Shown here: one piece after another, positions 22,707 to 29,096 of the stretch
Position numbering within the stretch: position 1 is the first letter of the stretch
Layout of the letters: each line of letters opens with the position of its first letter
DNA from: an uncultured Maribacter sp.
GTDB taxonomy: Bacteria; Bacteroidota; Bacteroidia; Flavobacteriales; Flavobacteriaceae
Assembly (NCBI GenBank): GCA_937125035.1
Contig: CAKZLG010000168.1
Coordinates: 1-38,992, forward strand
DNA length: 38,992 nt
Direction: 5' to 3'
The notes under the pieces: model-generated
The model's input: the letters and a program-made list of their open reading frames with translations, nothing else
Databases searched by the model: none
Told to the model about the DNA's origin: nothing
Position numbers and translations under genes: made by a program

Positions 22707-23891
22707 CTACTGTCTGTTACGACTCCGTGCAGTGGCCGAACGGGAAGTACTATTGCTCCTGGGGGCCGCTTTGTTTACCGATCTACTCCTTGTAGTACTA
22801 CTAACCGTTGATCTAGACCTGCTAGGAGCCTTGACCGCATTTCTACGGACGTTGTTCTGTGTCCGTTTTTGTGCCACGCTTCTGGTTGCGCTATTTTGCG
22901 CTTTGCGGACGGAAGAACTTCTGTCCACCGGTCTTTTGTACGTTGTGGTACTCCGGGTTACAGTCGTACTTCTTGGGGTACGGGTCACTTCCCTTTTTGT
23001 TACGCTTCTGTTGGCATTGCCCCTAACGGAGGCATTGCTTCTCTTCACCGAGGCCGTACTTCTTTGGTTTACCGCACTCCTGCTTCTGTTGGCATTGCCA
23101 TTGGAGCGTAGGGCCTTTCCATTTTCCGTACGTCCTCTGGACGCTACGGTATTTCTGCTGTTGGCCGTATTGCGGTTAGACCTTACCCTGTTGTCCCTAA
23201 GGGCCACACGCTTATCGTTTCTATAGATGGTGGCACGTTCCCTGCGCACATTGTTGAACCTGTGTTCTCTGCCAATTTGGGCATATGCTCTTCTTATATT
23301 GTTTCTATAAGGCCTGTACCAAGTATACCTAAAGGGCGTATAGAACCTTCTATAAGGCGTGTTCCAAACGTTGTGGAACCCAAGGACCGGTCTGGCAAAC
23401 CACCTATGAAAGGGGCTGAACACATACCGTCTGTTATAGATATTGATGAAACCGGTATGATGGCTAAAAACCCCACCGTTGTAAAAGATATTGAGGCCGC
23501 CCAACCTACGGACCAATCCGTTGTTATAGGATACGTTGATATTGCCTATCTGTGCCACCCTACCAAAGTGGTCGTAAAAGACAGGTACGTTCTCTACTTG
23601 GATCACAGCACCAAAATCATCGAACTGTACAAAGGGGTTATAATCGAAACCTGAATTGAAGGTGATACCGACGTTCCCCATACGGGCGCCGACACCTACA
23701 TTAACACGGTTATCAATGTAAAAATCGAACTCCCCGTCTGGAAATACGGAAAATGTGATGCCATCCTCTACAAAGATGAAGGCGTTTCCGTTGTTAAAGT
23801 TGACGGTTGCAACCTTATCCTCAGCTATTGCGGCATTGACCATCACTGTGCCAAAAAGTACCGCTGTCATAATGAGTGCTAACTTTTTCAT
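22707..23891 (-). CDS. secreted protein with beta-repeat N-domain and long Arg/Ser/Asn-rich basic tail
   Basis: A 394-aa protein I cannot assign to a characterised family. A signal peptide (1-23, ending AIA) is followed by residues 25-160 with a loose 16-20-residue repeat of the form v-x-Y-x-x-G-x-v-x-x-x-G-x-x-x-i (for example around FYDHFGRVAQIGNIN, VSYNNGLVRRLGGLN and FYNGGVFSHHTGFIN). A Tyr/Arg/Pro-rich stretch (165-205) comes next. The last 180 residues are low-complexity Arg/Ser/Thr/Asn/Ala with very few acidic residues and no hydrophobic core. A 15-bp-spaced TTTG/TATACTTG pair (23980-23954, minus strand) could be the promoter, and a short GC hairpin lies in the leader. The tail could bind polyanions such as DNA or acidic polysaccharide (inference). 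Confidence 0.7.
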   Translation of the reverse strand: MKKLALIMTAVLFGTVMVNAAIAEDKVATVNFNNGNAFIFVEDGITFSVFPDGEFDFYIDNRVNVGVGARMGNVGITFNSGFDYNPFVQFDDFGAVIQVENVPVFYDHFGRVAQIGNINVSYNNGLVRRLGGLNIFYNGGVFSHHTGFINIYNRRYVFSPFHRWFARPVLGFHNVWNTPYRRFYTPFRYTWYRPYRNNIRRAYAQIGREHRFNNVRRERATIYRNDKRVALRDNRVRSNRNTANSRNTVASRGRTENGKALRSNGNANRSRSAVNQRSTASVKRSNASVRGNANRSVTKREVTRTPRSTTVTRSTTTYKRPVDRSSSVRKAQNSATRSVAQKRTQNNVRRNAVKAPSRSRSTVSSTTRSRSVNKAAPRSNSTSRSATARSRNRQ

Positions 23892-27031: not shown

Positions 27032-27060
27032 TTTGGATTGTTTATTTTTTTCTATCTTTG
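27032..27060 (+). promoter_or_regulatory. promoter of the first sigma-factor gene (TTTG-N17-TATCTTTG)
   Basis: TTTG at 27032-27035, a 17-bp spacer and TATCTTTG at 27053-27060 form the best full Bacteroidota-type promoter in the window. The predicted leader to the ATG at 27177 is about 110 bases. Confidence 0.65.
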
Positions 27061-27176
27061 ACTCCATTCAAAACGACGTATAGCCTATAGCACACTTTTA
27101 CTTTTAATGTTAGTATAATTCTCCAAAACCCCTTCTTGTTTTCAATGGGGGTTGATACAACGAAAAAAGTGAAGCT

Positions 27177-27758
27177 ATGGAACTACAGATCAAAGATTCC
27201 CAACTTGTAAGGCAATATATCAACGGTGATGAGCGTGCTATAGAAATGCTCATACATAGGCATAATGCCAGGCTTACCGGTTTCATCTATTCCAAGGTAG
27301 GCGATAGGGAGCTGACCGAGGATATTTTCCAAGATACTTTTATGAAAGTGATCCGTACCTTAAAAAGGGGTGCCTATAATGAAGAGGGCAAATTTTTACC
27401 ATGGGTAATGCGCATAGCCCACAACCTGATCATAGACCATTTTAGAAAGAACAACAGAATGCCCATGTATGACGGGATGGAAAGCAACCATGTCTTTTCC
27501 TTAATGGGTGATGAGCAACTCAACGCAGAAAAGCAGTTGATCAAGGAGCAGATAGACCATGATCTGGCACGGATGATCAAGCAGTTGCCAGAGGACCAGC
27601 AAGAAGTCCTGCAGATGCGCCTTTATAAGGATATGAGCTTTAAGGAAATTTCCAATAATACAGGGGTAAGCATCAACACCGCCTTGGGACGTATGCGCTA
27701 TGCCCTGATCAACCTCAGAAAATTGGTGGAGGCCAATAGTATTGTTTTAACGAATTAA
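27177..27758 (+). CDS. ECF-like sigma-70 family RNA polymerase sigma factor (copy 1)
   Basis: 193 aa with only sigma regions 2 and 4, the ECF architecture. Region 2 includes DIFQDTFMKVIRTL and the WVMRIAHNLIIDHFRK segment that contacts the -10 region and core enzyme. Region 4 is the helix-turn-helix around LPEDQQEVLQMRLYKDMSFKEIS with SINTALGRMRYAL. By hand count it matches the second sigma gene at about 140 of 193 aligned residues without gaps. No anti-sigma membrane gene is adjacent. A 47-aa ORF follows after 72 bp and a terminator closes the unit. Confidence 0.93.
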   Translation: MELQIKDSQLVRQYINGDERAIEMLIHRHNARLTGFIYSKVGDRELTEDIFQDTFMKVIRTLKRGAYNEEGKFLPWVMRIAHNLIIDHFRKNNRMPMYDGMESNHVFSLMGDEQLNAEKQLIKEQIDHDLARMIKQLPEDQQEVLQMRLYKDMSFKEISNNTGVSINTALGRMRYALINLRKLVEANSIVLTN

Positions 27759-27830
27759 TTTGTCGTAGGTCGAACGAATCCATTATCTTGATGCTCTTGT
27801 CGTTCTTTTAAAGAATGAAAATCAAAAACT

Positions 27831-27974
27831 ATGGAGCATCTTTACACTAAAAACGACCAAGAAAAAAAACAACTTAAGACGAGTCCGGATAAGATACGGT
27901 TCTTATTGAACTACTCAAAGTCACTACATATCACCAAAACAGGTGAAATGACGTTCGAGGGCCATCTCAACTAG
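27831..27974 (+). CDS. 47-aa microprotein paired with sigma copy 1
   Basis: ATG 27831 to TAG 27974, reading MEHLYTKNDQEKKQ then PDKIRFLLNYSKSL and ending FEGHLN. The family is unknown. Support for translation: it is exactly the same length as the ORF after the second sigma gene and aligns with it without gaps (14 of 47 identical, plus many conservative changes, with shared P-x-x-I-x-F-L, S-x-x-L and F-E-x-x-L-N positions). It also lies exactly 72 bp after its sigma gene, as does the other copy. It is small, soluble and basic. A role in tuning the partner sigma is a guess. Confidence 0.72.
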   Translation: MEHLYTKNDQEKKQLKTSPDKIRFLLNYSKSLHITKTGEMTFEGHLN

Positions 27975-27996
27975 CACCCAAAAGATACCTAATCAA

Positions 27997-28026
27997 AACC
28001 CCTGGCGAAAAGCCAGGGGTTTTTTT
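27997..28026 (+). terminator. intrinsic terminator of sigma/microprotein unit 1
   Basis: A perfect 8-bp stem, CCCCTGGC (27999-28006) with GCCAGGGG (28012-28019) around GAAAA, is followed by seven T. The remaining 244 bp to the second sigma gene contain no gene I can support and no clean TAnnTTTG promoter. Confidence 0.95.
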
Positions 28027-28270
28027 GTGCACTGTGTCCAAGGGAATGAATGGCCGTTTGGGCCTGCCCTGGCCGTACCCTGTGCATCCCCGCTTTTTGG
28101 GGTCTAAGGTGTGGAAAAATACAATTTTGGCGTTTCACATCAGAATATGCTGCTTTTACAACATACTTTTTTGCACGGCTTGCCTTTTCTCTAGTTTTAT
28201 ATCAGAATTAAAAACAAAAACAGATTTTAGAACGGAGATTCCCCAATCTTTCAAGCAAATAAAAACCGAT

Positions 28271-28852
28271 ATGGAATTAAGGACGAACGACTCAGAATTG
28301 GTAAGGGATTACATCAGTGGAGATGAAAAGGCCCTTGAAATCTTGATCAACAGGCACAACCAACGCATTACAAGTTTCATATATTCCAAGGTGCTGGATA
28401 AGGACGTAACGGAAGATATTTTCCAAGACACCTTTATTAAGGTCATAAAGACTCTAAAGAAAGGGAATTATAGTGAGGAAGGTAAATTTTTACCTTGGGT
28501 GATGCGCATTGCCCATAATTTGATCATTGATTATTTTAGGAAGAACAAGCGGATGCCCAAGTTTGAAGGCAACGATGACTTCAATATCTTTTCTGTTATT
28601 GGGGATGAAAAGCTAAATGCGGAGAAACAGTTGATCAAAGATCAGATAGATACCGATCTGCGTTACTTGATAGAAGAGCTGCCAGAAGACCAAAAGGAGG
28701 TGCTATTGATGCGCATCTACAAAGACATGAGCTTCAAGGAGATTTCCGAAAACACGGGTGTGAGCATCAACACCGCTTTGGGAAGAATGCGTTACGCCCT
28801 CATCAATCTTAGAAAAATTATAGAAAAGCACAACATAGTCCTCACCAGTTAA
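28271..28852 (+). CDS. ECF-like sigma-70 family RNA polymerase sigma factor (copy 2)
   Basis: 193 aa starting at ATG 28271 (MELRTNDSELV), collinear with the first copy. The frame stays open upstream to 28025 but that part is not conserved and crosses the leader. Region 2 (DIFQDTFIKVIKTL, WVMRIAHNLIIDYFRK) and region 4 (LPEDQKEVLLMRIYKDMSFKEIS, SINTALGRMRYAL) are intact. The region 4 recognition helix is nearly identical to copy 1, so overlapping target promoters are likely. The least conserved block is the linker near residues 100-110. A 47-aa ORF follows at exactly 72 bp. Confidence 0.93.
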   Translation: MELRTNDSELVRDYISGDEKALEILINRHNQRITSFIYSKVLDKDVTEDIFQDTFIKVIKTLKKGNYSEEGKFLPWVMRIAHNLIIDYFRKNKRMPKFEGNDDFNIFSVIGDEKLNAEKQLIKDQIDTDLRYLIEELPEDQKEVLLMRIYKDMSFKEISENTGVSINTALGRMRYALINLRKIIEKHNIVLTS

Positions 28853-28877
28853 ACAAGGGGTCAAAACTTAAAGCACA

Positions 28878-28926
28878 ATATTTCCATTTACGTTGCGTTA
28901 TTTTAATGTAACAATATTGGAAATAT
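28878..28926 (+). other. inverted repeat that could fold over the start of microprotein 2
   Basis: ATATTTCCA (28878-28886) is complementary to TGGAAATAT (28918-28926), whose end overlaps the ATG at 28925. Inside it, TTACGTT pairs with AATGTAA with one G-T wobble. Together they form a long imperfect hairpin that would hide the initiation codon. A shorter 7-bp hairpin occurs in the matching gap of unit 1. Confidence 0.5.
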
Positions 28927-29068
28927 GGAAAAAATTTACTCTGAACACCAAAAACAAATTGGTTTTGACAAAGTTTGTCCAAAGACCATCAACTTTTTAA
29001 TCAGCTTTTCCCAGGCCCTTTATGAGATAAAGCATAAGGACCTGAGGTTCGAGACCTTTTTAAATTAA
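28925..29068 (+). CDS. 47-aa microprotein paired with sigma copy 2
   Basis: ATG 28925 to TAA 29068, reading MEKIYSEHQKQIGF then PKTINFLISFSQAL and ending FETFLN. It is paralogous to the 47-aa ORF after sigma copy 1: same length, ungapped, 14 identities. It begins at the same 72-bp distance from its sigma gene. It has one cysteine (residue 18) that the other lacks. No family is recognised. A strong terminator follows within 10 bp, so the ORF fills the space up to transcript end. Because its start lies in an inverted repeat, translation may be conditional. Confidence 0.72.
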   Translation: MEKIYSEHQKQIGFDKVCPKTINFLISFSQALYEIKHKDLRFETFLN

Positions 29069-29071
29069 TAG

Positions 29072-29096
29072 AAACCCGCTACTTGCGGGTTTTTTT
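29072..29096 (+). terminator. intrinsic terminator of sigma/microprotein unit 2
   Basis: AAACCCGC (29072-29079) pairs with GCGGGTTT (29085-29092) around TACTT and is followed by T-rich sequence. It overlaps the last codons of the convergent nth-like gene, whose stop is at 29079, and may also act for that transcript. Confidence 0.88.

Follow-up and report, generated by a model that had tools for sequence, protein, structure and literature searches.

A 47-residue protein family encoded behind a SigP-like sigma factor of Flavobacteriaceae, candidate minimised anti-sigma factors

Two copies of a small genetic unit lie in tandem in a 38,992-nucleotide stretch of DNA from an uncultured Maribacter sp. 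of the family Flavobacteriaceae (assembly GCA_937125035.1, contig CAKZLG010000168.1, positions 1 to 38,992), hereafter called the window. Each unit consists of a gene for an extracytoplasmic function (ECF) sigma factor and an open reading frame (ORF) encoding a microprotein of 47 residues. An earlier note, made from the sequence alone, had proposed that these small ORFs are real genes and that their products could be compact regulators of the sigma factors. Here we examine the units, their relatives in other genomes and the role that the microprotein may play.

The tandem units and a family of small genes

The features of the locus, which occupies positions 27,083 to 29,094 of the window, are the following.

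27083 to 27180, + strand: structured leader RNA of unit A (seen by folding; the arms of 79 leaders fit their own partners better than swapped ones)
27177 to 27758, + strand: ECF sigma factor A, upstream copy, SigP-like, 193 aa (Sigma70_r2 and r4 above Pfam cut-offs; 140/193 residues identical to B; in the upstream-copy clade)
27831 to 27974, + strand: microprotein A, 47 aa, proposed minimal anti-sigma factor (15/47 residues identical to B; closest relative among the loci 26/47)
27995 to 28023, + strand: intrinsic terminator of unit A (hairpin of -22.4 kcal/mol, z -3.85, then a T run)
28133 to 28163, + strand: direct repeat TTTCACATCA-N11-TTTTACAACA upstream of unit B (CATC-N17-CAAC in 45/45 downstream copies)
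28271 to 28852, + strand: ECF sigma factor B, downstream copy, 193 aa (Pfam domains; at most 92% identity to the sigma factors of relatives, among the matches listed)
28925 to 29068, + strand: microprotein B, 47 aa, proposed minimal anti-sigma factor (closest relative among the loci 38/47; AlphaFold2 (AF2) helix 19-31 and two strands)
29070 to 29094, + strand: intrinsic terminator of unit B (terminator scan; fold z -4.67)

Both sigma genes are 582 bp long and their products align without a gap, the identity matching an earlier hand count of about 73%. PF04542, PF08281 and PF04545 scored above cut-off in both copies, so that ECF sigma regions 2 and 4 are present. In either unit the 144-bp ORF (47 codons) begins 72 bp past the sigma stop codon, and a strong terminator follows, as the earlier note had described; a simple terminator scan reported the unit B hairpin only, that of unit A coming from folding. 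The two microproteins do align in register, with 15 identical residues out of 47 where 14 had been counted, and their ungapped BLOSUM62 score of 71 compares with a best of 21 in 10,000 shuffles. Microprotein A is itself a row of profile A1, hence its match to that profile is by construction. Between units A and B no further plausible gene was found, the ORF list showing short overlapping frames only.

In order to follow the small ORF beyond the window we assembled 110 loci containing 161 sigma units: the best 80 of at least 581 relatives, 29 that were the best of another list, and the window itself, with species overlap between the first two sets. A small ORF stands behind 161/161 sigma units (154 recognised by motif and the other seven by a profile from those 154; 44-93 bits), and 147 of the 161 small proteins are distinct. 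All of the ORFs have an ATG start, encode 45-50 aa and end with Asn. The proteins share a core, E-T-[IV]-x-F-L-L-x-[YF]-S-K-[SA]-L, and a tail, F-E-x-x-L-N, and the family is unrecognised by Pfam and NCBIfam. The equal 72-bp gap of the window units is not kept elsewhere, the distance varying from 51 to 115 nt among the 161 units. Over the 148 distinct units the microprotein start is preceded by A-rich positions (53-68% A at -2, -3, -6, -11, -14 and -17, compared with 30% further upstream in the gap).

Selection on the small ORF was estimated from 309 microprotein pairs of equal length and at least 70% DNA identity, 148 of which had a synonymous rate (dS) of 0.1-1.5. The median ratio of nonsynonymous to synonymous rates (dN/dS) was 0.21 over those 148 pairs and 0.15 in 44 pairs sharing no sequence, with 43/44 below 0.5 and none at or above 1. 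In 21 of those 44 pairs the sigma gene gave a defined value, with a median of 0.019, which can be read only as much lower than that of the microprotein because the sigma dS, reaching 4.9, is saturated in some pairs. The microprotein values lie far from 1 and indicate purifying selection. The small ORF is therefore a genuine gene family under purifying selection, and neither of the two sequence checks that the earlier note had put forward, homologues behind orthologous sigma genes and dN/dS, refuted it.

We then searched 299 Flavobacteriaceae genomes, using cut-offs of E 1e-50 for the sigma factor and E 1e-3 for the microprotein, the latter with a profile of 47 rows, some of them from one and the same species. 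The sigma factor was present in 282/299 genomes and the microprotein in 267/299; 266/282 sigma-bearing genomes also have the microprotein (adjacency was not checked genome by genome), and one genome (G067) gave a marginal microprotein match (E 6e-4) without the sigma factor. Among the 16 sigma-bearing genomes missed by the profile, 12 have a diverged form, such as PR..VIKRILAFSKSY, identified by inspection or through a weak profile match, and six of these 12 have lost the final Asn. The sigma and microprotein unit is thus family-wide, extending well beyond the window, and the small ORFs are real genes kept with this sigma clade.

The tandem arrangement on which the note had focused is not what defines the unit, since most of the 299 genomes are single-copy; two sigma matches were found in 41 (hand count). 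In a tree of 155 sigma rows, built by a quick method and with many weak forks, 33/45 upstream copies form one supported clade (98 in the Shimodaira-Hasegawa-like approximate likelihood ratio test), downstream copies fall among single-copy genes, and the rows closest to the upstream sigma factor of the window come from Maribacter. The second copy is derived, found within one section of the family that includes Maribacter, and may go back to a single origin.

Control regions of the units

Of the 148 distinct units, 125 have a terminator-like hairpin in the 90 nt that follow the microprotein; in the shorter gap between sigma and microprotein genes there was none (0/148), as in shuffled stretches (0/148). 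One transcript, ending after the microprotein, probably encodes both proteins.

Ahead of the unit A leader lies a sigma-A-like TATCTTTG box at 27053. In the predicted fold of the leader, GCCTATAGC (27083-27091) pairs with GCTATGG at the start codon, and a second stem joins TTTACTTTT (from 27097) to AAAAGTGAA (from 27165) with one G-U pair. The sequence GCCTATA occurs upstream of the sigma gene in 44/45 upstream copies, 36/58 single copies and 0/45 downstream copies. Pairing was assessed without alignment on the 79 distinct leaders that have CCTATA. There, a CTATAGC stretch forms a stem with the sequence around the start codon, 68/79 leaders have this codon mostly paired, and the second stem, ATTACTTT with AAAGTAAT, forms in 73/79. 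Native arms gave a mean of -13.1 kcal/mol compared to -10.5 (sd 0.2) for arms swapped between leaders, and 0/5000 swaps were as good; the result, which relatedness can inflate, held within upstream copies and within single copies separately. RNAalifold found no pairs on a MAFFT alignment of the leaders (A5, 71 rows), a failure probably due to the variable inner part, which disrupts the alignment. In Rfam, a tRNA was the only window match at gathering score, eight loci gave none, and matches around the unit were far below cut-off. A search for the leader motif in the genomes of 21 relatives returned no more matches than a reversed-pattern control, and none in the window's genome, whose own leader differs from the searched motif by one base; on both counts the search says nothing about other genes under this leader. 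A transcriptome study of Flavobacterium psychrophilum describes a list of 64 structured 5' regions (PMC9723704), which may include the sigma leader.

In place of this leader, downstream copies have in common a direct repeat of the type TTTCACATCA-N11-TTTGACAACA, with a 21-nt period. Its CATC-N17-CAAC form is present in 45/45 downstream, 9/58 single and 2/45 upstream copies, and it is perhaps an activator site. With the GCCTATA leader before one sigma gene and the direct repeat before the other, units A and B therefore have different control regions.

The position behind the sigma gene in other Bacteroidota

We read 40 loci outside the family: 2 at the level of the order, 30 of the class and 8 of the phylum. 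At 8/8 phylum-level loci a longer ORF, of about 170-290 aa, lies directly behind the sigma gene. Five of these start like CIRYLMKEMDPSEELLMERAMMEDEDLLIEVESMRQTLKKLDQLPEVEPP and the other three less closely, and all eight have a later hydrophobic stretch (mean hydropathy 1.0-2.3 over 19 residues). One longer form was scanned and matched the NCBIfam 'anti-sigma factor' entry with E 5.5e-12, below the family cut-off. The earlier statement that no classical anti-sigma gene is nearby thus holds within the window, but in outgroup loci a longer anti-sigma-like protein occupies that very place.

Class-level loci have a short ORF of 39-74 aa in 15/30 cases. Forms of 58-60 aa, and one of 74 aa, retain more of the anti-sigma-like domain, and forms of 39-47 and 63-66 aa share mainly its end, for example EPSSQTVLNILSYSQS. 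At one class-level locus (L138) a frame that looks by eye like a transposase stands in the small ORF's place downstream of the sigma gene. Both order-level loci read first have 44-aa forms. Ten further order-level genomes yielded nine sigma loci, seven of which have forms of 44-50 aa, while L201 has a form of 90 aa and L202 none; the tenth genome lacks such a sigma factor. The 90-aa ORF (L201:1159-1431, minus strand) encodes a complete domain of the long kind ending with LVLN, like the end of the 47-aa family, and is a possible missing link. Arranged by size, the loci form a graded series, from a longer and probably membrane-bound anti-sigma factor, through soluble forms of 58-90 aa, to forms of 39-50 aa keeping little beyond the last helix.

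Profiles were compared with hhalign. Profile A2 comprised 14 of the 15 class-level short ORFs, picked by eye (L139 was excluded; for two ORFs a Met further in was taken as the start, and GTG or TTG is the start codon of some), and profile A3 the N-terminal 103-115 residues of the 8 longer outgroup forms. The 47-aa family matched the 14 class-level short forms (probability 91.5%, E 8.5e-7, score 30.8), these matched the 8 longer forms (87%, E 4e-6, score 34.6), and the 90-aa form of L201 matched the longer forms as well (94%, E 1.2e-7, score 43.1). Against 150 column-shuffled targets for each of the three links, the best control scores were 14.2, 14.1 and 17.0, and 0/150 reached the real ones. 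This chain supports a descent of the 47-aa proteins from an anti-sigma domain via intermediates, which we infer from sequence profiles. By the alignments, the last helix is the part shared with most outgroup forms, and the tail is not. In searches against PDB chains the microprotein showed no sequence relation (best E 0.92); the top PDB match of the outgroup profile, RskA, had only E 0.67 and was not counted as evidence.

AF2 modelling of microprotein B alone (47 rows) gave a helix at residues 19-31, with a mean predicted local distance difference test score of 87 over residues 21-30, strands at 32-37 and 40-45, and a weaker helix at 2-11; the overall mean was 72.5 and the predicted template modelling score (pTM) 0.37. 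Unit A was modelled as sigma factor and microprotein read through the in-frame 72-bp gap (39 rows), and here again the microprotein was predicted as a helix and two strands (block means 72, 82, 72 and 64). A fold comparison of this pair model returned sigma chains, several of them from sigma/anti-sigma complexes, matched through the sigma part only.

As for the surroundings of the units, they are preceded by uvrA on the minus strand and followed by two genes, one endonuclease III-like (slightly short of the family cut-off) and one for a thiol peroxidase. The endonuclease III-like gene of the window sits on the minus strand, opposite to the units; at six class-level loci (L140, L141, L143, L149, L153 and L158) an ORF that looks by eye like an endonuclease III gene also follows the sigma gene and short ORF. 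Elsewhere in the window, a 394-aa ORF at 22707-23891 on the minus strand has a C-terminal half very rich in Arg, Ser, Asn and Thr.

The sigma factor and a proposed role for the microprotein

Porphyromonas gingivalis SigP is described as an ECF sigma factor of 193 aa which binds PorX and has genes of type IX secretion under its control (PMC4800418). Flavobacterium johnsoniae is reported to have a single SigP homologue (PMC10951265), and homologues have been gathered from many Bacteroidetes (PMC7323717). We looked for PorX and for GldL, of the secretion motor, in 35 genomes: 17 without the sigma factor, 17 sigma-bearing ones chosen for small size, and that of the window. A laxer search shifted three of the 17 'sigma-lacking' genomes (L178, L179 and L180, all Flavobacteriaceae) to the sigma-bearing side; all three have a PglZ protein, and the orthology of their sigma factors is less sure because the identity is 43-50%. 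PglZ, the PorX domain by which alone PorX was judged, was found in 21/21 sigma-bearing and 4/14 sigma-lacking genomes (p 5e-6), and GldL in 20/21 and 11/14 (p 0.28, no clear difference; five of the 20 below the family cut-off), p values that are too good owing to shared ancestry. All 25 PglZ matches are part of open frames whose length, 515-581 aa, is that expected of PorX. The four sigma-lacking genomes with PglZ are only 66-90% complete, and the six that are at least 95% complete, from four genera, have PglZ in 0/6 and GldL in 5/6. Since it co-occurs with PorX, the sigma factor of the window is probably a SigP orthologue, being likened to SigP by description and by this co-occurrence, not by the SigP sequence.

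No anti-sigma gene is named for SigP in the available text of a study that names possible ones for four other P. gingivalis ECF sigma factors (PMC7712824), and among the literature matches listed we found no small anti-sigma factor of this SigP-like sigma factor. Of the known systems, class I anti-sigma factors (RseA, RskA, RsiW, ChrR) offer the closest comparison. The microprotein gene adjoins an ECF sigma gene, as theirs do, in all 161 near units; the longer outgroup forms have a helical domain and then a hydrophobic stretch; and the part retained is the last helix after a Pro-containing turn, which by the alignments would correspond to helix 4 of the published class I analysis. That helix is described as binding sigma2 and probably blocking core polymerase (PMC7406223). 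Unlike class I proteins, whose domain averages 101 aa in the same source, the window proteins have 47 aa, no membrane segment and no sensor domain. Class I is defined by four helices, three of them bundled, and AF2 predicts for the microprotein one confident helix, a weaker N-terminal helix and two strands, with no three-helix bundle; a direct sequence match to class I proteins was not found, the matches running through intermediates at the same locus. Lacking the four-helix domain, the microprotein is placed in neither class I nor class II, though it may work like either.

CnrY, the class II example, is membrane-anchored, unlike the window microproteins, and the search of PDB chains gave no sequence relation to them. 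NepR is a small stand-alone soluble anti-sigma factor of an ECF sigma factor, freed by the response regulator PhyR, and the idea that PorX acts in release is modelled on this pair; NepR belongs to another phylum, PorX bears a PglZ domain and not a sigma-like one, and the likeness is one of proposed function. The short sigma-binding region of CnrY is described as having two helices, the last on sigma2 (PMC7406223), an arrangement that the microprotein may share. EcfO-Reo of Bacteroides was dropped as a model, as Reo is described as spanning both membranes (PMC13114119).

On this basis, we propose, with moderate confidence, that the 47-aa proteins are minimised anti-sigma factors of a SigP-type sigma factor; a 'compact regulator', as the earlier note had it, is the likeliest role. 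An ordinary anti-sigma factor would have lost its sensor part and first helices, leaving a 47-aa soluble protein made of the last helix of the anti-sigma domain and a short C-terminal hairpin, ending with Asn in near relatives. The last helix, which covers sigma region 2 in known complexes, should block RNA polymerase binding, a new sigma factor would be born with its own brake, and PorX could release it from the microprotein.

Several observations weigh against this proposal. The 47-aa profile has no direct match to the longer outgroup forms (3/150 shuffles equal it), nor does it match the 90-aa form of L201; because the direct step fails, homology rests on the chain through short forms picked by eye, and on position. 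The hydropathy of the 19-residue stretch exceeds 1.6 in only 4/8 longer forms. No recognisable short ORF was seen behind the sigma gene in 15/30 class-level loci, none in 4/16 re-examined family loci (L191, L194, L195 and L196) and no microprotein in the three genomes with diverged sigma factors. The read-through pair model had a pTM of 0.46 and an unreadable interface, and in the mutual information between sigma factor and microprotein (161 units, effective number 67) the top pairs resemble clade markers and favour no region, a pattern uninformative also for the earlier note's suggestion that each microprotein could be specific to its own sigma factor.

A different role would be that of a positive cofactor, derived from an anti-sigma domain whose inhibitory part was lost, which would stabilise the sigma factor or hand it to RNA polymerase or PorX. 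So little remains past the last helix that the sigma4 contact may be lost, some sigma orthologues manage without the small ORF, and P. gingivalis SigP is described as close to undetectable when its partner PorX is missing by mutation (PMC4800418). However, the part retained corresponds to helix 4, which is described as a competitor of core polymerase at sigma2, and the anti-sigma domain of CnrY is described as short, with two helices (both PMC7406223), and we regard a cofactor as unlikely. We give still less credence to an adaptor or sensor, for instance for sigma proteolysis, that would not inhibit directly and whose C-terminal Asn tail would be a recognition signal: the final Asn is found in 161/161 near relatives and the F-E-x-x-L-N tail is conserved as much as the helix, but the Asn is lost in half of the diverged family members (6/12), and what most outgroup forms share is the helix and not the tail. 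Finally, the ORF does look like the end of a longer gene that has shrunk, but a remnant in decay, or a 3' element that is not translated and has stayed beside the sigma gene by chance, is highly improbable given the purifying selection, the retention in 161/161 near units and 266/282 genomes, and the ATG start and 45-50 codons in all 161.

Put together, a minimised anti-sigma factor, the leader and the duplication suggest a broader picture, which we offer as speculative and rather doubtful as a whole. Type IX secretion in flavobacteria would stand under what is, to our knowledge, the smallest known stand-alone anti-sigma factor, a 47-aa relic of an anti-sigma domain, left after the loss of the sensor and of most helices; PorX would be the release factor as PhyR is for NepR, the leader pairing with the start codon would add a translational switch, and the two units of the window would act as brakes in parallel, each under a control region of its own.

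According to a published survey, a recognised class I domain lies beside only 6% of Bacteroidetes ECF sigma factors, and domains of less than 50 aa were removed (PMC7406223). The 47-aa family falls into this blind spot, with a sigma factor that is present in 282 of 299 Flavobacteriaceae genomes. The series of loci offers a rare stepwise view of how an anti-sigma factor would have been reduced to scarcely more than a single helix. Should the sigma factor be SigP, there would be a candidate gene for the inhibitor, so far unnamed, of this regulator of type IX secretion, and the microprotein may be a brake, unnoticed until now, that acts on a protein secretion regulator.

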